Assembly (NCBI GenBank): GCA_003676145.1 | Contig: NAUB01000031.1 | Coordinates: 1 to 64,000 of the forward strand | Length of the DNA: 64,000 nucleotides | Source of the DNA: a gamma proteobacterium symbiont of Stewartia floridana | GTDB lineage: Bacteria > Pseudomonadota > Gammaproteobacteria > Chromatiales > Chromatiaceae | Direction of reading: 5' to 3' | In this document: one piece after another, positions 1 to 8,915 of the stretch | Numbering within the stretch: the first letter of the stretch is position 1 | Layout of the letters: each line of letters starts with the position of its first letter | Notes under the pieces: generated by a model | Databases searched by the model: none | Told to the model about the DNA's origin: nothing | What the model saw: only the letters and a program-made list of their open reading frames with translations | Program-made: the position numbers and the translations under genes

Positions 1-51
1 AGATGCTAACTTGTTGAATTTGTGTCTATTTTGGTGTTATATAGAGGTCTT

Positions 52-101
52 GCTATAAAAAAATAACGAGACAGGGGGTCTCGTTAACGTAACTGTTATG
101 C
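52..101 (+). repeat. attC site, short family, copy 1
   Basis: The inner core has a 9-bp perfect stem (TAACGAGAC at 64-72, GTCTCGTTA at 78-86), then ACGTAACT and the R' box GTTATGC at 95-101. The R'' side is GCTATAA, followed by an A-run of 7, two fewer than in the other five copies. It closes a cassette whose start lies outside the window. Read on the minus strand it is a stem-loop followed by a T-run. Confidence 0.85.
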
Positions 102-114
102 ATAGAAATGAAGC

Positions 115-600
115 ATGAATAGTATTGCAATAATTGGACTACGAATTATATCAATATATCAGATAGTTACTGGCACCAATGCCATCGCAGGCATGAGTAT
201 TGCGTTACCTGTAGTTAATACAAACTTTAAAGAAGAGCTGTCAACTCTCCAACTACTTAGTATAGCGATACCATTATTGAGTGGTGTTGTTATTTGGATA
301 TTATCAGTACCCATTTCAAGATATGTTACTAATAACCAAAGTACAGAAGTTAAATTGATTGATGATGCAAGTATTGTGGCAGCAGGTACTTTTTTAATTG
401 GAGTGTATTTGGTTTTTTCACAACTTCCGATGCTATTTTTTGTTATTGAAAAATACAATGAACTTGAATATGGCATGGAGTCAACATCTATTACTTCCGC
501 TATAAAACTGTCATCGATTAATTTTACTATTGGATTATTACTTATGATTGGAAATGGATTTTTTGTTAAGGTCTATAAGTGGTTACGGACGGCTTGGTAA
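115..600 (+). CDS. Cassette 1: hypothetical membrane protein
   Basis: A 161-residue protein with at least three hydrophobic segments (about residues 44-64, 85-111 and 133-153), so probably an inner-membrane protein. I recognise no family or catalytic motif. The ATG lies 20 bp inside the cassette and has only a weak upstream purine stretch, so translation may depend on read-through from the array promoter. It is AT-rich, unlike the chromosomal genes to the right, which fits horizontal acquisition as a cassette. Function unknown. Confidence 0.7.
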   Translation: MNSIAIIGLRIISIYQIVTGTNAIAGMSIALPVVNTNFKEELSTLQLLSIAIPLLSGVVIWILSVPISRYVTNNQSTEVKLIDDASIVAAGTFLIGVYLVFSQLPMLFFVIEKYNELEYGMESTSITSAIKLSSINFTIGLLLMIGNGFFVKVYKWLRTAW

Positions 601-601
601 T

Positions 602-652
602 GCATAAAAAAAAATAACGAGACAGGGGGTCTCGTTAACGTAACTGTTAGCA
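602..652 (+). repeat. attC site, short family, copy 2
   Basis: R'' GCATAA at 602-607 pairs with the start of cassette 1 (TTATGC at 96). A run of nine A leads into the invariant 35-bp core at 615-649, and the R' box GTTAGCA is at 646-652. The core is identical to the other five short sites. Confidence 0.87.
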
Positions 653-667
653 ATAAAGGAGAAGACC

Positions 668-1624
668 ATGAAATTCATTGTGATGGCAATAGCACTTCTA
701 CCAACATTGAGTCATTCTAGTGATTGTAGTGAGAAATTATTAGATAAAGAGTTTCGTACTGGTTCATCCGCAAGTGATAAGTATGAATACGATTTCCACC
801 TTGCGTGTAGCTCTAATTTCAAAGAGTATGGAAAGTCAAAAGGCGGAGATGCCGAATTTGCTTTCAAGTTAATTAGTGGTGGCGCAAGCTATAATGAGAA
901 TAATTATAATCAATTTAAGGCTAAGAGTTGCAATGAAAGCACACAAGAAAGGCATCGAAAAGCCATGGAATATTACGCGTTCGAGGTTTTCAATAAGGAC
1001 GCAGTAAATGCGTATTTACAATGCAAGCGTCACCAGGGGTTCTCCTGTTGGGTTCAACCACACGGGTTATCACAAATAAAATTTATTGCGCACCTAGGTA
1101 CAGGCGCACCGAGATACGAGACGCCGGATGGCATAATAATCAACGGAAACGTACAAATCATAGGCAATAAACTTTCGGCTGGAAGCGTTCTGAAATATGG
1201 CCCCCAATCTGTAGTAGTCGAAAGAAACGATGCTGGACCTGTTTTCTTTTCTCTTGATGTTTCTACTGAGATTACCACAAATAGTTGCGAAGCTTTTGTT
1301 CCTGGTAATCGTACATATAAAGGCCCACTTTCATGGACGCACGTAGAAAGAAAGGGTGAAACTAGAATATTTCACAAACCTACTCGATATGGTGTGATGC
1401 TAAAAGATAAGGAATCTACCTTCGACCGTTTTTGCACTGAACTAGGAATGAGGTTTACTGGAGACTACAGGCAGGAAAAGACAGGAAAAGATTTATCTGA
1501 ATCGTGGGGCTACATGGAGGAATCAGGCAATTGGGAAAAACATCGGTGTGATTATAAATCAAGTACATGGGACAATTGCTACGTTAAACCTGTTCGCATT
1601 AGTTGCACAAGAATAAGTTATTAA
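668..1624 (+). CDS. Cassette 2: hypothetical secreted Cys-rich protein
   Basis: A 318-residue protein with an N-terminal signal peptide (cleavage likely near residue 17, after Ser-His-Ser) and ten cysteines spread along the mature part. This suggests a disulfide-bonded periplasmic or exported protein. A strong AAGGAG ribosome binding site precedes the ATG, so unlike some neighbours it can initiate well on its own. It is unusually large for a cassette gene. I recognise no domain; function unknown. Confidence 0.75.
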   Translation: MKFIVMAIALLPTLSHSSDCSEKLLDKEFRTGSSASDKYEYDFHLACSSNFKEYGKSKGGDAEFAFKLISGGASYNENNYNQFKAKSCNESTQERHRKAMEYYAFEVFNKDAVNAYLQCKRHQGFSCWVQPHGLSQIKFIAHLGTGAPRYETPDGIIINGNVQIIGNKLSAGSVLKYGPQSVVVERNDAGPVFFSLDVSTEITTNSCEAFVPGNRTYKGPLSWTHVERKGETRIFHKPTRYGVMLKDKESTFDRFCTELGMRFTGDYRQEKTGKDLSESWGYMEESGNWEKHRCDYKSSTWDNCYVKPVRISCTRISY

Positions 1625-1626
1625 AT

Positions 1627-1677
1627 TGCTAAAAAAAAATAACGAGACAGGGGGTCTCGTTAACGTAACTGTTAGGC
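1627..1677 (+). repeat. attC site, short family, copy 3
   Basis: R'' TGCTAA at 1627-1632 complements the start of cassette 2 (TTAGCA at 647). Nine A, the invariant core at 1640-1674 and the R' box GTTAGGC at 1671-1677 follow. Confidence 0.87.
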
Positions 1678-1684
1678 AAATGAA

Positions 1685-2137
1685 GTGAGTAGATTCGTAT
1701 ACTTAATAATTTTACTTATTTTTTGCTCGCCGTTAATCGCAGAGGATTACTGTGACAAGGCTTACTGGGATGTCGCATTAGTTAAAGAAGAAGAGAAATG
1801 TCGTAACATTGCAGAGTTAGGTAACGATGAAGCGCAATTTGGTTATGGTCTTATACTGATTGGAGGTCATGATCGAATTTCAAAGCCAAATGAGGCTTTT
1901 GAATGGTTTACAAAAAGCGCAAAACAAGGAAACCATTTAGCTCAAACGATACTCGGAAGGATGTTAAGCGATTCACATTTTGGTGTTTCACTCGATTTAC
2001 CAAAAGCCTATGCATGGTGGGCCGTATCAAATAATACAAAATCAGCTAATGAATTATGGTTAAGGTTAACATCAGATCAACAGGACAAAGCAAAAGAGCT
2101 AGAGAAAGAATATGCGTCAGCATACGTTAGAAAATGA
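1685..2137 (+). CDS. Cassette 3: Sel1-like repeat protein, exported
   Basis: A 150-residue protein starting at GTG, with a signal peptide (about residues 1-19) followed by Sel1-like repeats. One repeat covers roughly residues 45-85 (AELGNDEAQFGYG, then AFEWFTKSAKQGNHLAQ), and a partial second has LPKAYAWWAVS. Sel1 repeats form helical solenoids used for protein contacts, often in periplasmic or envelope proteins. The partner is unknown. It is the only cassette of the short-attC group whose own attC is of the conventional type. Confidence 0.75.
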   Translation: MSRFVYLIILLIFCSPLIAEDYCDKAYWDVALVKEEEKCRNIAELGNDEAQFGYGLILIGGHDRISKPNEAFEWFTKSAKQGNHLAQTILGRMLSDSHFGVSLDLPKAYAWWAVSNNTKSANELWLRLTSDQQDKAKELEKEYASAYVRK

Positions 2138-2145
2138 ATTAAATT

Positions 2146-2212
2146 GCCTAACCAGCAGCTTCAGTGGACGCTGTCGCTATCGCGCCATCTCCACTGAGCT
2201 TGGTCGTTATGC
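2146..2212 (+). repeat. attC site, conventional, 67 bp
   Basis: R'' GCCTAAC (2146-2152) complements GTTAGGC at 1671, and R' GTTATGC is at 2206-2212. The interior holds an imperfect inverted repeat, CAGTGGACG against a CCACTG-containing arm, typical of foldable attC sites. Confidence 0.88.
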
Positions 2213-2222
2213 ATCGTAATAC

Positions 2223-2582
2223 ATGAAGAAAGTTTCGTATTTAATTTGTGGATTGGCAGCATTAGTAACTATTGCAATTGGAATAGATAGTATGGAGCCT
2301 TACTCACTAACAGCAATAGGGTTTATGGCATGGGCAATATCACCATATGGTTTATTGTCAATTTTAATAAAGTTCTCTAAGTCACAAATAACAATACCAG
2401 GAACGTTAATCTTGGCTGTCGCAGCTTCTGTATTTGGGCTTGGGTTAATAATTGACGCTTTATATATACATCTAGATGCGCAAGGAGGATTGGTTTATAT
2501 AATTGTACCGTTTTGGCAATGGGTTACTTTTCTTTTATGTCTAGTACCTTTTTTCTTACTAAACAGGGAAAATAATGCATAA
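2223..2582 (+). CDS. Cassette 4: small four-helix membrane protein
   Basis: A 119-residue, very hydrophobic protein with four predicted transmembrane segments (about residues 4-22, 30-50, 57-82 and 88-113). It has no catalytic motif or recognisable family. The ATG lies 16 bp from the recombination point with almost no leader and no clear ribosome binding site. Its TAA stop is supplied by the R'' box of its own attC. Function unknown. Confidence 0.7.
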   Translation: MKKVSYLICGLAALVTIAIGIDSMEPYSLTAIGFMAWAISPYGLLSILIKFSKSQITIPGTLILAVAASVFGLGLIIDALYIHLDAQGGLVYIIVPFWQWVTFLLCLVPFFLLNRENNA

Positions 2583-2624
2583 CCAGTCATTTCAGCGGAC
2601 AAGCCGCTGAATGCGGCGTTAGCC
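2577..2624 (+). repeat. attC site, conventional, compact 48 bp
   Basis: R'' GCATAAC (2577-2583) complements GTTATGC at 2206, and R' GTTAGCC is at 2618-2624. The inner hairpin is CAGCGG/CCGCTG. It overlaps the last codons of cassette 4. Confidence 0.87.
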
Positions 2625-2636
2625 CCCAAAAACGAA

Positions 2637-3197
2637 ATGGAAGACAACGACACAACTTCAGAACTGCAGCAGCTTTTTTTTGCATTTGTAGGCAACACCC
2701 TTCTGCAATATCAGCTGCTGGAGCAATCGATTAAGGGAATTCGGAATTGGTCCGCTTTGGTCGAGGCCGATTGGAATTACGAAGACCTAATCTCTTTTTC
2801 GCCCAGGAAGAAAGAAACACTGGGTGCGGCCATTCATAGCCTAAGAAAAATCTTAAACTTGTCACCCGAGTTTGAAGAGAAGCTTTTCAAAGTCCTGGAA
2901 AACCGTAACCGGTTTGCCCATTCATACATCGAAGGGAAAGATCGGCACCTAGAAAATCAGGAAGAATTGTTCGAGTACATTGCTGAGCTTCAAGAACAAA
3001 TAATTCAGGTTCAGGAAATGAATTACACGTTCCACGCCTTTCAGCGCATGTACAACGAAAAGCATGTGCCCTCAAACATTATCGAGGCACTTGGCGCTAA
3101 CCGCATGGATCGGGAAATCGATCGAAGAGTAGAGGCATTCAAAAGCCAAGTTTCAGAATCATTTGGTGTCGATATGGAGCCAAAGCGTGAGGGCTAA
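2637..3197 (+). CDS. Cassette 5: HEPN-like alpha-helical protein
   Basis: A 186-residue soluble protein, charged and probably all-helical. It contains RNRFAHS at about residues 90-96, which matches the R-X4-H motif of HEPN ribonucleases and follows a helix rich in Glu and Lys. HEPN proteins often act as RNases in toxin-antitoxin, abortive infection or CRISPR systems. No antitoxin partner (MNT or other) is in the same cassette, so either it works alone or the resemblance is only structural. Base composition is closer to the chromosome than in the other cassettes. The TAA stop lies in the attC R'' box. Confidence 0.65.
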   Translation: MEDNDTTSELQQLFFAFVGNTLLQYQLLEQSIKGIRNWSALVEADWNYEDLISFSPRKKETLGAAIHSLRKILNLSPEFEEKLFKVLENRNRFAHSYIEGKDRHLENQEELFEYIAELQEQIIQVQEMNYTFHAFQRMYNEKHVPSNIIEALGANRMDREIDRRVEAFKSQVSESFGVDMEPKREG

Positions 3198-3269
3198 CAA
3201 GGCAATCAAGACGCGCCTTTGGCGCTGGGACGTCGGCTTCGCCGCCGCCCCTTATTATTGGCGTTAAGT
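3192..3269 (+). repeat. attC site, conventional, 78 bp
   Basis: R'' GGCTAAC (3192-3198) complements GTTAGCC at 2618, and R' GTTAAGT is at 3263-3269. The GC-rich interior has two nested stems (GCGCC...GGCGC and CGGC...GCCG). Confidence 0.88.
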
Positions 3270-3277
3270 GCAGGAAT

Positions 3278-3790
3278 ATGAAAAAAATAGTTTTTACCAT
3301 AGTCCTTTTTTTAGTCTCTTCTATTTGCTATGGCGATAAATATGCAAAATTGTCAGCGCCGCCAGGACATTACGATTCAGTTGATTTAGGTGCCGCATCA
3401 GAAGAAATGGAAATTGACGCAAATATAATATTTACAAGCTTTGATAGGAGCGCTGAGTGGCCGCCAGGTGCGTATGTTGGTTTTTACGATGAAAACGATC
3501 GGAATAATAAATTTCAGTTCTTAATTATGAGGAACAAGAAAACTGATAACTATGTTGTGGCAGGTTATAGAGTAATTGAAAGTGGGAAAGAGGTAAAAGT
3601 GGCATCTATTTCATATTATGCGCTAAACGAGAAAGTTTCGCCTACGTTGAAATACTCTAAGGGTAAAGTAAGAATCTGTATTTCCGGGCATGATCCAGTT
3701 GAAATTACTACTAAGCTGCAGAAAGTGGTCCCGTATATCTCAGTGTCCTCAGGAGAGGCAGAGTTTGAGGTGGCACTTAAAAAAAAATAA
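3278..3790 (+). CDS. Cassette 6: hypothetical exported protein
   Basis: A 170-residue protein with a clear signal peptide (KK followed by a hydrophobic core, cleavage near residue 19), then a beta-rich region without a family motif I can name. It is probably periplasmic. The C terminus is formed by the attC: the last lysines are encoded by the A-run of the short attC and the TAA stop (3788-3790) is the first triplet of the conserved core. Function unknown. Confidence 0.7.
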   Translation: MKKIVFTIVLFLVSSICYGDKYAKLSAPPGHYDSVDLGAASEEMEIDANIIFTSFDRSAEWPPGAYVGFYDENDRNNKFQFLIMRNKKTDNYVVAGYRVIESGKEVKVASISYYALNEKVSPTLKYSKGKVRICISGHDPVEITTKLQKVVPYISVSSGEAEFEVALKKK

Positions 3791-3825
3791 CGAGACAGGG
3801 GGTCTCGTTAACGTAACTGTTATGT
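3774..3825 (+). repeat. attC site, short family, copy 4
   Basis: R'' CACTTAA (3774-3780) complements TTAAGTG at 3264. Nine A, the invariant core at 3788-3822 and R' GTTATGT at 3819-3825 follow. The core supplies the stop codon of cassette 6. Confidence 0.87.
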
Positions 3826-3854
3826 TTCTATAGGGATTAATTAAAGACTGCATC

Positions 3855-4109
3855 ATGATCAATAAACGCCAAGCTATAGATAAAAATGCACACTTAAAAG
3901 CCGCATTGATTTTTATTGGTGCTTGGTTGTTCATTGCATACATCATTTTTAAAAACATTAAAGAATTAGGTGGGCTACCTGAATTAATAAATGAGATAAG
4001 AAATGGTGGGTATTCAGAATTAATTCTATTAGGGTTTAGTGTTTTTTTGTTAGCAAAATTTCTTCAGCACTTTTTTAACTATCTTACATTCAGGGAAAAT
4101 GAACAATAA
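3855..4109 (+). CDS. Cassette 7: small membrane protein
   Basis: An 84-residue protein with two predicted transmembrane helices (about residues 13-33 and 53-75), separated by a short loop containing GGLPELINE. The N terminus is basic and presumably cytoplasmic. No family recognised. It is the only ORF in a 343-bp cassette. Confidence 0.62.
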   Translation: MINKRQAIDKNAHLKAALIFIGAWLFIAYIIFKNIKELGGLPELINEIRNGGYSELILLGFSVFLLAKFLQHFFNYLTFRENEQ

Positions 4110-4116
4110 TATTAAG

Positions 4117-4168
4117 AACATAAAAAAAAATAACGAGACAGGGGGTCTCGTTAACGTAACTGTTATGG
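4117..4168 (+). repeat. attC site, short family, copy 5
   Basis: R'' AACATAA (4117-4123) complements TTATGTT at 3820. Nine A, the invariant core at 4131-4165 and R' GTTATGG at 4162-4168 follow. Confidence 0.87.
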
Positions 4169-4183
4169 CTCAATGGAAGAAAG

Positions 4184-4453
4184 ATGAAGTGCCCCAAATG
4201 CAAAGAAAACATAGGTGTATTTACGAAAACGGTAAATACATGGAATAAAGAGAGGCTTTGCCCTCATTGTCAGGCAAAAATAGAGGTGTATATGCCAGCA
4301 AAAGGACAGGCATTAATGTTTGGTGCTTTAGTTAGTCTGATCACACTAGATGATTTAATTGAATCATATATCGGAGTGCTTGGTTTAGTGTTTTTGTCAT
4401 GCGTTGTTGGAGGGTATACGGCAATATCTTCTCTCAGCTTAAGGTTACGATAA
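4184..4453 (+). CDS. Cassette 8: zinc-ribbon membrane protein
   Basis: An 89-residue protein with an N-terminal zinc ribbon made of two knuckles (CPKC at residues 3-6 and CPHC at about 27-30), followed by two hydrophobic segments (about residues 43-57 and 62-82). A ribbon fused to membrane helices is common in small envelope proteins of unknown role. About 50 bp of untranslated sequence follows before the attC. Confidence 0.68.
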   Translation: MKCPKCKENIGVFTKTVNTWNKERLCPHCQAKIEVYMPAKGQALMFGALVSLITLDDLIESYIGVLGLVFLSCVVGGYTAISSLSLRLR

Positions 4454-4504
4454 TAATCACCCATTTAAATATGCACTTTGTACAAAGCGGTATTGTAAGT
4501 TGCG

Positions 4505-4574
4505 CCATAACAATTACAGTCAGCAGGAAAAACCTACGCTGCGCTACGGTTTTCCTCTGCTGTAGGCGTTAGAT
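4505..4574 (+). repeat. attC site, conventional, 70 bp
   Basis: R'' CCATAAC (4505-4511) complements GTTATGG at 4162, and R' GTTAGAT is at 4568-4574. Long interior arms CAGCAGGAAAA and TTTTCCTCTGCTG flank GCTGCGC. Confidence 0.9.
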
Positions 4575-4580
4575 TTCAGA

Positions 4581-5024
4581 ATGACCACAGTCGAATCAAT
4601 TACGCTCGCGATTGCTGTACTAGGTGCGGTCCTTGGAGTCATCAACACCTGGGTAGGGTTGTCGAAGGAAAAGGTGAAGCTCATAGTCACTCCAAAGCAC
4701 GCTATCCCTGTCGGTGGTGCGCCTGAACATCTGGAGTTCTGCGTCGAGGTAGTGAATCTCAGTGCTTTTCCAGTCACTGTTTCCGAGGTCGGTGTGTTCT
4801 ACCGGGGTACTGATAAACGATCAGTTATCCCCAATCCAATTACCTCAGACGGTAAGCCTTTCCCGAGGCGCTTGGAATCACGATCAGGCGTCACCCTATA
4901 CTCGGAGAAGCCGCGTCCCCTCGTGAACGGAAAACGAATGAAGTGTGCGTTCGCCAAAACCGATTGCGGCGTGGTCGTTAAAGGCAACAGCCCGGCTTTT
5001 CGGCAAATTGCAAATGAAATCTAA
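4581..5024 (+). CDS. Cassette 9: membrane-anchored hypothetical protein
   Basis: A 147-residue protein with one N-terminal transmembrane helix (about residues 6-26) and a beta-rich soluble domain of about 110 residues that resembles small proteins described only as hypothetical. GC content and codon use are higher than in cassettes 1-4, which suggests a different donor. The ATG is 12 bp from the recombination point. Its TAA stop is in the R'' of the attC. Function unknown. Confidence 0.68.
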   Translation: MTTVESITLAIAVLGAVLGVINTWVGLSKEKVKLIVTPKHAIPVGGAPEHLEFCVEVVNLSAFPVTVSEVGVFYRGTDKRSVIPNPITSDGKPFPRRLESRSGVTLYSEKPRPLVNGKRMKCAFAKTDCGVVVKGNSPAFRQIANEI

Positions 5025-5069
5025 AAAAAAATAACGAGACAGGGGGTCTCGTTAACGTAACTGTTAATG
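5018..5069 (+). repeat. attC site, short family, copy 6 (array end)
   Basis: R'' AATCTAA complements TTAGATT at 4569. Nine A, the invariant core at 5032-5066 and R' GTTAATG at 5063-5069 follow. No matching R'' (CATTAA followed by a core) is found downstream, so this is taken as the distal end of the array. Confidence 0.85.
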
Positions 5070-5178
5070 GCCGTTAACCGGAAGTAGAGAAATACATTCT
5101 GAATGTCAGCTACGGTCGCAAAGTGACCATAGGAGGTTCAGGGGAATAAGTCAGTAGATACAAGGTTAGGACCGGCCA
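5068..5178 (+). ncRNA. Putative structured RNA, copy 1
   Basis: A closing stem TGGCCG (5068-5073) / CGGCCA (5173-5178) encloses a side hairpin (GTAG...CTAC around ACAT/ATGT) and a hairpin GGTCGC-AAA-GTGACC at about 5113-5127. A conserved strand with ATAGGAGGT and CAGTAGATACAAGGT follows. A second copy lies at 5933-6020. The strand is uncertain. It begins within the last integron core site. I do not recognise the family. The 202 bp from 5179 to 5381 shows no gene. Confidence 0.45.
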
Positions 5179-5381
5179 GAAGCGAACATCAGGATGCTGA
5201 AGCTGAAGAACTGCTAACACTCAGTTGGTTAATTCCGGCCATCTTGCTCACGGTTTCTGAAGGCCGCTTCAGGGTTAAGCAGTAACTGACCAACTTTGTT
5301 CAGCACAGCCGACAAAGTTCTTGAATCTGAGGGGAATGTCAGTTGACACTGCCGTACAAGCCAACTAAGGGGTATTGTGGC

Positions 5382-5585
5382 TCAGAGCTTGTGCAGTAGC
5401 ACGACGCCGAGCAGCCCTGCAATGATTAGCGGGAACAGCACGCTGGCGGCTCCTGACAATAGTTGCAAGCCTACAATGAAGCCGGGCTCCTCCTTCCAGT
5501 ACTCCCGCATCTCCTTTCTGTACTCTGAGTCGATCAGGTACTTCCAGCCTGCGAAATAGTTCAGAGTTGGGCGTTCCAGTATCAT
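5382..5585 (-). CDS. Small hypothetical membrane protein
   Basis: A 67-residue protein from the second ATG of the frame, chosen because AGAGAGAG lies just upstream; the first ATG at 5633 would add 16 residues with no good ribosome binding site. The N-terminal part is polar (aromatic and charged residues, FAGWKYLIDSEYRKEMREYW), and a single C-terminal transmembrane helix covers about residues 40-64. No family recognised. It lies alone between the two copies of the putative structured RNA. Confidence 0.45.
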   Translation of the reverse strand: MILERPTLNYFAGWKYLIDSEYRKEMREYWKEEPGFIVGLQLLSGAASVLFPLIIAGLLGVVLLHKL

Positions 5586-5932
5586 CTCTCTCTTCTGGCC
5601 TGAGGCCGCTATGGTTTTATGTATGATAAACACTAGCCAAGTGATGTGACAGAAGCATGACAGTTTGATTAATCCTTAATGACTATGTGTGGAGAGACTG
5701 CAGGGAATGCCAATCCCGTAGGTTGGCTTTATGCGCGACAGCCGACAAATGCATCTCAATTCGAGATGGGGGTGTGCAACGTCAGAGTTTTAAGGAGTCA
5801 GTTTCGATTGAAACAGTCTCTCTGTTATTGAGTTCCGACTATCCGCTTCAAGGTGCGAGATCAAAAGAGGACAGACCACAGTTTTGTGGAAAATCGCTGT
5901 TTCTGCTTTTTGCTAAAAATAGTAATTAGAAG

Positions 5933-6020
5933 AGCCGGTCTTTAAGGTCCGGAGTGGTTGCAAGGTGACCATAGGAGGTCTCAAGCGAAAAATCAGTAGA
6001 TACAAGGTCACTGCCCGGCT
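5933..6020 (+). ncRNA. Putative structured RNA, copy 2
   Basis: The closing stem is AGCCGG (5933-5938) / CCGGCT (6015-6020), different bases from copy 1 but again perfectly paired. The inner hairpin is GGTTGC-AAG-GTGACC, where a G-U wobble replaces one Watson-Crick pair of copy 1. About 49 nt of the 3' half aligns with copy 1 at roughly three quarters identity, including ATAGGAGGT and TCAGTAGATACAAGGT without change. Apart from this element, the gap 5634-6248 holds a dispersed repeat and a terminator-like hairpin. Confidence 0.45.
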
Positions 6021-6062
6021 ATTTGCGCCTTGAATAAAGCCTACCTGCCAATACGGATACCT

Positions 6063-6098
6063 GGCGTCCATTAGCGTTTATTCGCGTTCATTTGCGGA
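6063..6098. repeat. Dispersed intergenic repeat, copy 1
   Basis: The segment GGCGTCCATTAGCG followed by TTTATTCGCGTTCATTTGCGG recurs in related form, in either orientation, at 12767-12807, 15251-15280 and 45562-45660. All copies are intergenic. It looks like a short non-coding repeat family of the genome. Confidence 0.6.
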
Positions 6099-6160
6099 CT
6101 TTCTAAATTTCTTAAGGGGGGTGATTCGCGGAGTGCCAGTTTTTGCAGGCCTGAAATGAA

Positions 6161-6197
6161 GCACCGGGTTACAGATGGTGTCTCTGTAACCCGGTGC
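6161..6197 (-). terminator. Hairpin terminator of the Ig-repeat protein gene
   Basis: A 15-bp perfect stem (GCACCGGGTTACAGA at 6161-6175, its complement at 6183-6197) with a 7-nt loop lies 50 bp past the stop codon of the leftward gene. On the minus strand TTCATTTC follows, which is only a weak T-run. Confidence 0.6.
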
Positions 6198-6248
6198 TGA
6201 GTGCCAACCAATCGGTTGTCGGTGCAAATCCTTTTGCGGTGGTCTTTA

Positions 6249-8915
6249 CTACATGGTGTCTTTCGCTACGACGTTGGAGAGGTCACTTTCATTCCCTGAG
6301 AGGTCGTATGCTGTGATTGCGAAGTAGTAAGTACCGGTTTCCAGATTTTCAATGACATGGTTGTTGATCGTGCAGTCATCCACATCCATGATGGGTGAGA
6401 GATTGCTGTTGCTGGTTCCCATGTAGAGTCTGTAGCCGGAGATTTCACTCAGGTCCAGTAAGCTGCCGTCGGTTCTGGTGGCAGGAGCTACCCAGTTGAG
6501 TGAGACGCTACCGGTGGTAGGTGTGGTCTCGGCGGCTTCCACGACCAGGGTCAGTGGGCTCAGGGATGCTGTGTCAGTTCCGTCGGATACGCTGATCACG
6601 ATGTTGCTGTAGCTGCCTTCGTCCGCTTCTGCCGGTGTGCCGCTCAGGGAGCCGGTGCTGCTGTTGAAGCTGGCCCAGCTTGGCAGGTTGCTGATGCTGA
6701 AGGTCAAGCTGTCGTTGTCTGCATCGGATGCGGTTGGTGTGAAGACGTATCCGTCACCGACCATCACGCTCTGATCAGGTGTGCCACTGATAACCGGAGC
6801 ATTGTTCGGTGCTTCCACATCATGGATGGTGACAACGCTGACTGAAGGATCGTTCAGAGTGTAACCAGTGCTTGGCTCGTTAAGGTGTACTTCGAAAGTC
6901 TCCGCACCTTCATCGCTTGAGTCAGACATGGTGTTGATGTTGATGGTCTTGCTGGTTTCGCCATCGAGGAAGTTCAAGGCTGTCCAGACATAACCGGTGT
7001 AGTCCTGAGAGTGTCTTGCTTCGACGCCGTAGGTTCCGAAGTTGACAGTTGCTGCGCCATTACCGTTGTTACGGGTAACGGTCAGGGTTACGCTGCTGCC
7101 TTCTTCCACATCGTAGCCGTTGCTGGCGAACTGGAAGGTGCCGCCTTCTTCAGCCACATCGGCAACTGTGATGGCGAAAGGTGACAGGCTTGCCTGCTCG
7201 CTGCCGTCAGAGACGCTGATCACGATGTTTGAGTAGTTGCCGGCTGAGTTGGAGTCAGGGGTACCGCTCAGGCGACCGGTGCTTGAATTGAAGCTGGCCC
7301 AACTTGGCAGGTTGCTGACACTGAAGCTCAGGGCGTCGCCATCGGGGTCGCTGGCTGTCGGTGTGAAGCTGTAGGCGCTGCCTTCATCCAGACTGGTCGC
7401 CGGTGTGCCACTGATGGTCGGTGCACGATTGGTGTTGGAGACCGTGATGCTGAATGCGGTCAATGAAGCACTGGCGGAACCGTCAGAGACGCTGATGCGA
7501 ATGTTGCTGGTGGTGCCGGCGTCATCCATGCCCGGTGTGCCGCTGAGGACGCCGGTAGAGGTGTTGAAGCTGGCCCAGGCAGGACGATTCGCGATGGAGA
7601 AGCTGAGGCTGTCGCCATCTGCGTCATCAGCGGAAGGTGCAAAGCGGTAGCTGCCACCTTCGGCAACGGAGGTTGCTGGTGAACCGCTGATGGTTGGCGC
7701 CCGGTTGGTACCGGTTACGGTGATGCTGAAGGCACTCAGTGAAGCAGAGGCAGAGCCGTCAGAGACGCTGATGCGAATGTTGCTGGTGGTACCTTCGTCA
7801 TCCATGCCCGGTGTGCCGCTGAGGACACCGGTGGAGGTGTTGAAGCTGGCCCAGGATGGAGGGTTGGCGATGGAGAAGCTGAGTCTGTCGCCATCCGCGT
7901 CGTTGGCGGAAGGTGCAAAGCGGTAGCTGCCACCTTCGGCAACGGAGGTTGCAGGCGAACCACTGATGGTGGGTGCCTGGTTGGTGCCGGTTACGCTGAT
8001 GCTGAAGGGACTCAGTGAAGCAGAAGCAGAGCCGTCAGAGACACTGATCTGGATGTTGCTGGTGGTGCCTTCGTCATTCATGCCTGGTGCGCCGCTCAAT
8101 ACACCGGTGGAGGTGTTGAAGCTGGCCCAGGAGGGGCGATTCGCGATGGAGAAGCTGAGGCTGTCGCCGTCCGCATCATTGGCGGAAGGTGCAAAGCGGT
8201 AGCTGCCGCCTTCGGCAACGGAGGTTGCAGGTGAACCGCTGATGGTGGGCGCCCGGTTGGTATCGGTCACAGTGATGCTGAAAGCACTCAGTGAGGCTGT
8301 GTCAGTACCGTCAGAGACGCTGATGCGGATATTACTGGTGGTGCCGGCGTCGTCCATATCCGGAGTGCCGCTGAGCTGACCGGTGGCGCTGTTGAAGCTG
8401 GCCCATGCTGGTCTGTTGGCAATCGAGAAACTCAGGCTGTCGTTATCGGCATCGCTGGCACTTGGACGGAAGCTGTAGGCCTGGCCTTCGGCTACCTGGG
8501 TGTTGGGGGTGCCACTGATTACAGGTGGTGTGTTTTCCGGTGTTGGATCTGGCTCGGGATTGGGATCTTCACCAGCAACGAAGCAGTCGCTTGGTGCGCG
8601 GGCGACGAGCTTATTGGCTGCTTCCACGCCGGATACCACATCGACTTCACAAGGTACGAACGGAGGAGCAACCTGTCTGATGCGCCAGATGCCTTTCTTG
8701 TTAACGGTAGCTGAGCCAATCGGAAGGATTGAATTTGCTACGAACGCGTTGACTCGTGCGCCGGGCTCTCCCAGACCTTTGATGACCAGTTTGTCCTTTG
8801 CATTTCTCCAAATCGCTTTGGAGATGGAGAAATCAGCTGCTTGGGCGAGGTTGATATCTGCAGAAAACAGGGCCGGGAATAAAATCAACGGAAGGAGTTT
8901 GCGTGTTGCGTTCAT
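6249..8915 (-). CDS. Secreted multi-domain Ig-like repeat protein
   Basis: An 888-residue protein. A signal peptide (residues 1-26) is followed by a unique domain (27-112), a Pro/Glu-rich linker (118-130), five tandem cadherin-like or putative Ig modules of about 92 residues (129-589) with the recurring motifs SDADNDSLSFSI, WASFN and LSGTP, a Calx-beta domain (about 592-690), a sixth Ig module (693-785) and a C-terminal fibronectin type III domain (about 790-888). The Asp-rich loops suggest calcium-stabilised modules. Such proteins act in adhesion or as surface scaffolds. No LPXTG, autotransporter or RTX export signal is seen, so it may stay periplasmic or leave by type II secretion. It stands alone with its own terminator. 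Confidence 0.85.
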   Translation of the reverse strand: MNATRKLLPLILFPALFSADINLAQAADFSISKAIWRNAKDKLVIKGLGEPGARVNAFVANSILPIGSATVNKKGIWRIRQVAPPFVPCEVDVVSGVEAANKLVARAPSDCFVAGEDPNPEPDPTPENTPPVISGTPNTQVAEGQAYSFRPSASDADNDSLSFSIANRPAWASFNSATGQLSGTPDMDDAGTTSNIRISVSDGTDTASLSAFSITVTDTNRAPTISGSPATSVAEGGSYRFAPSANDADGDSLSFSIANRPSWASFNTSTGVLSGAPGMNDEGTTSNIQISVSDGSASASLSPFSISVTGTNQAPTISGSPATSVAEGGSYRFAPSANDADGDRLSFSIANPPSWASFNTSTGVLSGTPGMDDEGTTSNIRISVSDGSASASLSAFSITVTGTNRAPTISGSPATSVAEGGSYRFAPSADDADGDSLSFSIANRPAWASFNTSTGVLSGTPGMDDAGTTSNIRISVSDGSASASLTAFSITVSNTNRAPTISGTPATSLDEGSAYSFTPTASDPDGDALSFSVSNLPSWASFNSSTGRLSGTPDSNSAGNYSNIVISVSDGSEQASLSPFAITVADVAEEGGTFQFASNGYDVEEGSSVTLTVTRNNGNGAATVNFGTYGVEARHSQDYTGYVWTALNFLDGETSKTININTMSDSSDEGAETFEVHLNEPSTGYTLNDPSVSVVTIHDVEAPNNAPVISGTPDQSVMVGDGYVFTPTASDADNDSLTFSISNLPSWASFNSSTGSLSGTPAEADEGSYSNIVISVSDGTDTASLSPLTLVVEAAETTPTTGSVSLNWVAPATRTDGSLLDLSEISGYRLYMGTSNSNLSPIMDVDDCTINNHVIENLETGTYYFAITAYDLSGNESDLSNVVAKDTM
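7425..8252 (-). repeat. 276-bp tandem coding repeats
   Basis: Three consecutive 276-bp units, each encoding one 92-residue Ig module (protein residues 222-497), are nearly identical at the DNA level. The flanking modules are more diverged. This points to recent duplication or gene conversion, and unit number could vary between strains. Confidence 0.85.

Follow-up and report, generated by a model that had tools for sequence, protein, structure and literature searches.

The first 5,100 nucleotides of the DNA analyzed here (the window: positions 1 to 64,000 of contig NAUB01000031.1, from the gamma proteobacterium symbiont of Stewartia floridana) are the start of an integron cassette array. Base 1 of the window is base 1 of the contig, which is C9 of the 36 contigs of the assembly (genome G000). 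The organism belongs to Candidatus Thiodiazotropha, the sulphur-oxidising symbionts of lucinid clams. Nine cassettes lie in tandem, each with one small gene, and all of the features described are on the forward strand. Five cassettes end in a short attC site: cassette 1 (602–652, with R'' ending in TGCATAAA and R' reading GTTAGCA), cassettes 2 (1627–1677), 6 (3775–3825) and 7 (4118–4168), each recognized by a match to a common core and by the pairing of its arms, and cassette 9 (5019–5069), the last of the array, whose R' runs on into array-end sequence. The remaining four end in conventional attC sites with AAC in R'' (cassette 3, 2146–2212; cassette 4, 2577–2624; cassette 5, 3192–3269; and cassette 8, 4505–4574), all four being supported by arm pairing as well. 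Cassette 3 encodes a Sel1-repeat protein (1685–2137; Pfam PF08238, E 5e-9), and a copy of this cassette on contig C4 carries a short site. Ahead of the first cassette lies one further site (36–98), made up of a left flank, GTTATATAGAGGTCTTGCTAT (36–56), and a 39-nt core (57–95) that ends at the G of GTTA (95–98). A 35-bp core, TAACGAGACAGGGGGTCTCGTTAACGTAACTGTTA, occurs in six exact copies in the window (at 64, 615, 1640, 3788, 4131, and 5032), with a run of nine A before five of them and seven A before the first. A second array, on contig C4, has one more exact copy and two with two or three mismatches, and a control in which the core was read backwards gave 0 matches.

What the first of these sites is can be read from its left side. 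The flank GTTATATAGAGGTCTTGCTAT, with three mismatches or fewer allowed, recurs at 22 places in the genus; as judged by eye, it runs into the core at 14 of them, is followed at three by a core that an insertion sequence (IS) interrupts (twice after TAACG and once after TGGCG), and lacks the core at five. At three loci (L062, L110, and L111) a full-length intI gene in divergent orientation starts some 100 bases from the flank, and the site there has all the marks of an attI: it adjoins the divergent intI, stands first in the array, and has the insertion point GTTR. At L050 and L067 the flank lies beside intI fragments. L067, in genome G021, is an empty integron, in which the array-end sequence ATGTCCGCTT comes straight after the core with no cassette between them. 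The IntI of a relative, G016, passes the TIGR02249 model with 398.8 bits against a cut-off of 265. In the window's own assembly the intI side of the attI lies beyond the contig end. Since the core runs on from a conserved intI-side flank and is kept in an empty integron, we take it to be part of the attI, and we rejected the site at 52 as an attC. Judged from these sequences, then, the window opens at the attI of a Candidatus Thiodiazotropha chromosomal integron. That the core belongs to the attI and is not a fixed first cassette is the better supported of the two views; it presumes that no first-cassette junction lies to the left of GTTATATAG. An earlier reading of the window, made from the sequence alone, had counted ten attC sites, six with an identical core; the six exact cores and the A runs before them are as it described, but because the first site is an attI the list becomes nine attCs and one attI. 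The sequence-only reading had also held that a core found outside cassette arrays would speak against an attC, and the core is so found only insofar as it is also the attI.

The remaining five short sites in the window are true cassette ends, as the R'' arms pair with the start of their own cassette. In all nine window cassettes (five of five with short and four of four with conventional sites) pairing between the cassette's own start and the sequence leading up to the third base of the R'' triplet extends over 7–10 nt; the mean is 7.9 nt, against 3.6 nt with the starts of other cassettes, where TAA/TTA itself already supplies three nucleotides. In genome G019 such pairing is direct in three of six sites (6, 8, and 8 nt). 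In the remaining three the short site upstream misfits (3–4 nt) and an internal start fits over 8, 8, and 6 nt, this being the best of all GTT positions and so a weaker test; a second cassette with a conventional attC lies within one of these three intervals. The R'' triplet reads AAA in five of five short attCs in the window, which thus depart from RYYYAAC. Among the genus loci that were fetched, R'' reads AAA in 55 of 61 attC-type sites, AAC in one (L132:3994), and otherwise in five; the 61 are what remains of a catalogue of 79 covariance-model matches from 44 loci after subtraction of six IS junctions, eleven attIs, and one truncated match. From R'' to R' the short attC measures 51 bp, under the usual range of 57–141 bp (PMC12901181). 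When the bottom strands of three window sites were folded, each gave a perfect 9-bp stem with zero extrahelical bases and an internal loop of 9 × 7 nt. The predicted energies were −10.2 to −12.5 kcal/mol for three short sites versus −16.1 to −23.5 kcal/mol for three conventional ones. Most of what the sequence-only reading had said of this architecture holds: the C of R'' is replaced by A, the stem is perfect in the three sites folded, the outer R'' and R' bases match each cassette in nine of nine cases, and the other four sites are of typical kind. Its internal loop of 7 × 8 nt, however, was not what the folds gave.

The short-site family is limited to one genus within the genomes searched. 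The exact 21-bp right half of the core was found in ten stretches of the genome collection, all of them from Candidatus Thiodiazotropha, and in 0 viral contigs; with up to two mismatches it was found in 12 of 22 genomes of the genus and in 0 of 34 others. A covariance model built from 17 distinct sites detected the family in 17 of the 22 Thiodiazotropha genomes at E 0.05; the scan scored 150 first-look candidates per genome, and part of the places behind the 97 matches listed were fetched. The proposal of a host-specific attC type standing beside conventional cassettes is borne out by these counts. As an unusual attC the site type is real; its core, however, is attI-like, and its first member is the attI.

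How closely the cores of attI and attC agree becomes clear when they are compared integron by integron. In ungapped alignment the attI has CTAT where the attCs have YTAA, and from there the two share 39 nt up to the G of the crossover. The core varies among species, and attI and attCs vary together: in the window array an A run is present in attI and attCs alike; in G004 both have the loop GTGGG and the spacer AATATAGCTG; and GCGG and AATTAAGCTG are common to the two in G019, where the attI has one base of its own. The distance of an attC core from the attI of its own array is zero in the window array (five of five attCs) and in G004 (three of three), and one or two bases in G019 (six of six). 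Pooled over these three arrays, the 39-nt core is identical to the local attI in eight of 14 sites and no more than two bases off in 14 of 14. This comparison shows that attI and attC cores are identical or nearly identical within three integrons. When the attIs of six arrays were permuted among the arrays, with the three arrays that lack local identity (G008, G015, and G000 C1) retained, only two of 720 assignments, the true one included, reached the true sum. We infer that the short-core segment derives from the attI and not the attI from the short core.

Cassettes that occur with both types of site show where one core gives way to the other. The cassettes of four arrays were searched for across the genus and among the other loci, and five were found whose copies differ in site type, one copy having a short site and another a conventional attC: window cassette 1 and its copy in G016 (86%), the Sel1 cassette with a short site on C4 and a conventional one on C9 (92.5%), two cassettes shared by G019 and G004 (one at 99.1%, in two pieces because the G004 copy is split by an insertion, and one at 70%), and one shared by G004 and G006 (96.9%). 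In all five pairs the first difference past R'' is the base directly after RYYYAA, at which one copy has C and a conventional core and the other has A and the attI core; in the 70% pair and the G006 pair the BLAST alignment extends five and three bases further through A-rich chance matches. Two additional copies are less clean: R'' is decayed in the G002 copy of window cassette 1, and the G013 copy of the 99.1% cassette reads AAAC, so that the break falls one base later. One more pair, L132 and L143, has the short site in both copies, and a genus-wide search with the cassettes of the G016 array found no second copy at E 1e-20. For two of the pairs an outgroup is available. The G002 copy of the Sel1 cassette (85.2% to C4 and 86.9% to C9) and the G013 copy of the 99.1% cassette (80.7%) both have the conventional core, and therefore the short core is the derived state in these two cases. 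The idea that a host-specific type of site had captured foreign cassettes was thus half right, in that some cassettes with conventional attCs elsewhere bear the resident core here.

Many Thiodiazotropha cassettes end in a short site that matches the integron's own insertion site, and some of them bear ordinary sites elsewhere, which suggests that captured genes are re-tagged with a copy of the site at which the resident integron takes them in. The cut that IntI makes in normal excision falls between the A and C of R', on the bottom strand in its folded form. When it is the top strand that is transferred, R'' is the target (PMC2727003). Probably, IntI occasionally links the R'' of an arriving attC with the attI, and the attI core thereby takes the place of the attC core. 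In such a reaction the R'' of a conventional attC would be cut between AA and C, the mirror image of the normal cut in R', and would be joined to the left edge of the core of the attI or of a neighboring short attC, the two donors being equally possible. The joining would release a circle consisting of the core, the cassette, and RYYYAA, in which the cassette would keep its own arms and gain the attI core; re-insertion of the circle at attI would yield a resident-type cassette, and repetition over time would homogenize the array. With the C of R'' lost, no cleavable triplet would be left on the top strand and only the bottom strand, at R', would react, so that the choice of strand in a hairpin without extrahelical bases could rest on the AAC at R' alone. 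The scheme as a whole, in which the attI is the template for the resident attC sites, a wrong-strand reaction of IntI at R'' swaps in the local attI core, and the change of AAC to AAA locks orientation without extrahelical bases, is put forward tentatively, with the odds still against it.

Several observations weigh against this account. The intI gene that was sought to the left of the array adjoins the same flank in relatives, but the window genome itself has only two C-terminal parts of intI (132-aa frames), at the starts of contigs C29 and C34. The top strand of the one site that was folded both ways reached −11.4 kcal/mol (with seven extra letters) against −10.2 kcal/mol for the bottom strand; it thus folds as well as the bottom strand, and the folds by themselves point to neither strand. 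The stem covaries little: double changes occur in three of 12 pairs, and the observed values are equalled or exceeded in 15 to 37 of 500 shuffles. In G008, G015 (whose intI is fragmented), and G000 C1 (five attCs) the attC cores are unlike the local attI, with mean distances of 9.5, 8.0, and 7.0. The junction in the attI lies 39 nt to the left of the crossover TAT|A, neither at the L box nor at an AAC triplet. A reciprocal product, in which the left flank of the attI would be joined to a conventional core, was not recognized by eye at any of the 22 flank places. Last, the putatively re-tagged cassettes of G019 now stand away from the attI.

The sharing of a core by attI and attCs can also be approached from the attC side. 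The short core might, like the Vibrio repeats, be a species-specific attC type of the ordinary kind that was homogenized by attC–attC conversion or recombination, the attI having been overwritten by it or keeping a fixed first cassette without an open reading frame (ORF). Homogeneous attCs of chromosomal integrons are known, gene conversion has been proposed for those of Vibrio (PMC1382264), and the attI unit starts with TTATA and ends with TATAA, a weak complementarity that would fit an overwritten attI or a first cassette. We nevertheless consider this origin rather improbable: the left flank is contiguous with intI-side sequence, as judged by eye, at the 21 places that have that side on the contig, while the cassettes after the core differ, and there is no evident homology between conventional and short cores by which a conversion tract would end after AA, where five of five pairs part.

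A different objection concerns what the short sites do. They may act as double-stranded, attI-like sites, in attI × attI recombination with a second strand exchange, and the arm pairing may be merely inherited from a former attC. The identity of the core with the attI would fit, IntI1 is known to recombine attI with attI (PMC4792948), and the folds of the short sites are weak and, in the three sites folded, without extrahelical bases. Yet the stem has been kept. In an alignment adjusted to the structure, with rows for attIs and junctions among the rest, 93.9% of helix-2 cells are paired over 64 distinct rows, against 26.5–52.2% of all cells in slid controls; one site, L056:6407, is altered on both sides at two stem pairs; and the arms are still complementary in all nine window cassettes. 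We regard the double-stranded action of these sites as possible, though not the likelier view. Least probable by far is that the element is a transcription terminator. The bottom-strand hairpin is followed by a T run in the window sites; in most relatives, however, the A run gives way to sequences like AAATAG or AAATGTA, with no long T tract conserved, and a terminator would leave the position at the cassette end and the pairing of the arms unexplained. This reading was rejected because the A run is not conserved.

The re-tagging proposed here has a precedent in the delta-attI cassettes of class 1 and class 2 integrons, in which 14–18 nt of attI (244 nt in one type) replace the attC (PMC12901181). 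These number 96 in 1,685 class 1 and 14 in 57 class 2 integrons, those that were assayed do recombine, and the proposal of Partridge (2000, 2009) that they arise from an event between R'' and the L box of attI is repeated in the same paper. Reactions at the L box would put attI on the downstream side of the cassette (PMC4792948). The likeness is that the attC is replaced by a piece of the integron's attI downstream of the ORF, with an origin by R'' × attI proposed. The Thiodiazotropha piece differs in that it is 39 nt long and has a hairpin, so that the product resembles a small attC; delta-attI cassettes are rare, whereas the Thiodiazotropha core is, for several chromosomal integrons of a single genus, a main type of resident site, and each of the better preserved integrons has a version of its own. 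With VCR-like, species-specific attC families the short sites have in common a homogeneous type per lineage, cassette-specific outer arms, and an admixture of other types; they differ from them in being equal to the attI core, in the AAA of R'', in the length of 51 nt, and in an A9 variant that folds without an extrahelical base. Cassettes whose attC has received an insertion (an IS or a group IIC intron) are comparable in that an IS110-family element lies in several short sites, but the replacement of the core is not itself an insertion.

To place the Thiodiazotropha sites among other integrons, we compared 58 loci besides seven of the own clade; 57 have an intI match, and in 43 the array side extends for at least 1.5 kb. 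The integrases of these 43 are 39–53% identical to that of the Thiodiazotropha integron. Among the 43, a segment from the attI side is copied further on, ending at GTT, only in L119 (G094). There, on the reverse strand at 1737 and 3823, a near copy of 70 nt lies 2.1 kb into the array and ends just past GTT, a possible single attI-derived site in another genus. Repeats were seen in L178, L126, L188, and L185, none of them tied to the attI, and examination of seven attI ends for sharing of the attI core gave a result that agrees with the 43-locus comparison. In this sample, the attI core as the resident kind of attC looks peculiar to the Thiodiazotropha lineage. In L115, L112, L113, L114, L117, L118, and L120 the attIs of related integrases have, as judged by eye, a hairpin of other sequence to the left of GTT; these hairpins are perfect or nearly so, as in the 15-bp stem of L115.

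The short core also appears to receive insertions. An IS110-family element (Pfam Transposase_20; L017:2530–3891) lies at one point of the core, and its junctions were seen in L050, L052, L054, L057, L058, L060, L061, L069, L110, L140, and L259 as well. In attCs as well as attIs, six of six left ends follow TAACG and GAGAC comes after eight of eight right ends; a further left end, in L259, follows TGGCG. By its junctions, the integron core looks like the target site of the IS110 element. A site in G019 (L130, 4293–4337) has a cassette that ends with GCCTAAC, matching its own start, followed by CG, TTATAA, and the core; the appearance is that of an insertion, beside R'', of a 45-nt unit consisting of the core alone. 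Right after the attI of G004 (L111:4258 onward) lies an element with a tyrosine recombinase of its own (Pfam Phage_integrase, 26% to IntI). The stretch beside it, L111:5200–6666, recurs three more times in G004 in nearly identical form, and G009 and G020 also have copies. The short site at L053:10779 is followed by GAACTAAACCGC (L053:10823 onward), the start that the G004 recombinase element has; G004:C1:23976 and 3148172 belong to the same set of places.

We also note some features of the window genome and its array. Contigs C34 and C29 open with the same intI stretch (L018:1–399 and L019:1–399), two integrases split at an assembly repeat; there being two 3' halves of intI, integrons of this kind number at least two in the genome. 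Just beyond the array end lies a 53-nt repeat, GGTCGCAAAGTGACCATAGGAGG..TCAGTAGATACAAGGT, in two copies that are 79% alike (5114–5166 and 5956–6008), and a reverse copy resembling it, as judged by eye, adjoins the intI fragment on C29 (L019, about 535). Among the nine cassette proteins only the Sel1-repeat protein passed a Pfam cut-off, and two NCBIfam matches to these proteins both fell under the cut-off. Against Rfam, window positions 1–6500 gave nothing that reached a gathering score, and two weak matches (E 0.03 and 0.54) were judged to be chance.

Finally, delta-attI cassettes and homogeneous chromosomal attCs are known separately; their union, together with pairs of cassettes before and after the change, was not found in the literature searched. 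Nor did we find a report of a resident attC family equal to an attI, a weak negative as the search covered mainly openly accessible literature. No reliable model of cassette genesis is said to be available (PMC4792948), and de novo cassette formation has been called largely unknown (PMC5371416). How cassettes come by their attC, and why attCs are alike within one chromosomal integron, are the open questions addressed here. With cassettes seen before and after the change and a junction exact to the base, a candidate donor (the attI or its copies), a candidate reaction (at R''), and a product can be named, and the rules of strand choice could be tested on a naturally occurring attC-like site that lacks extrahelical bases and has its cleavage triplet on one side only. 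If the attI does serve as template, this would explain the homogeneous, lineage-specific attCs of chromosomal integrons, and one step in the making of cassettes would become directly testable.

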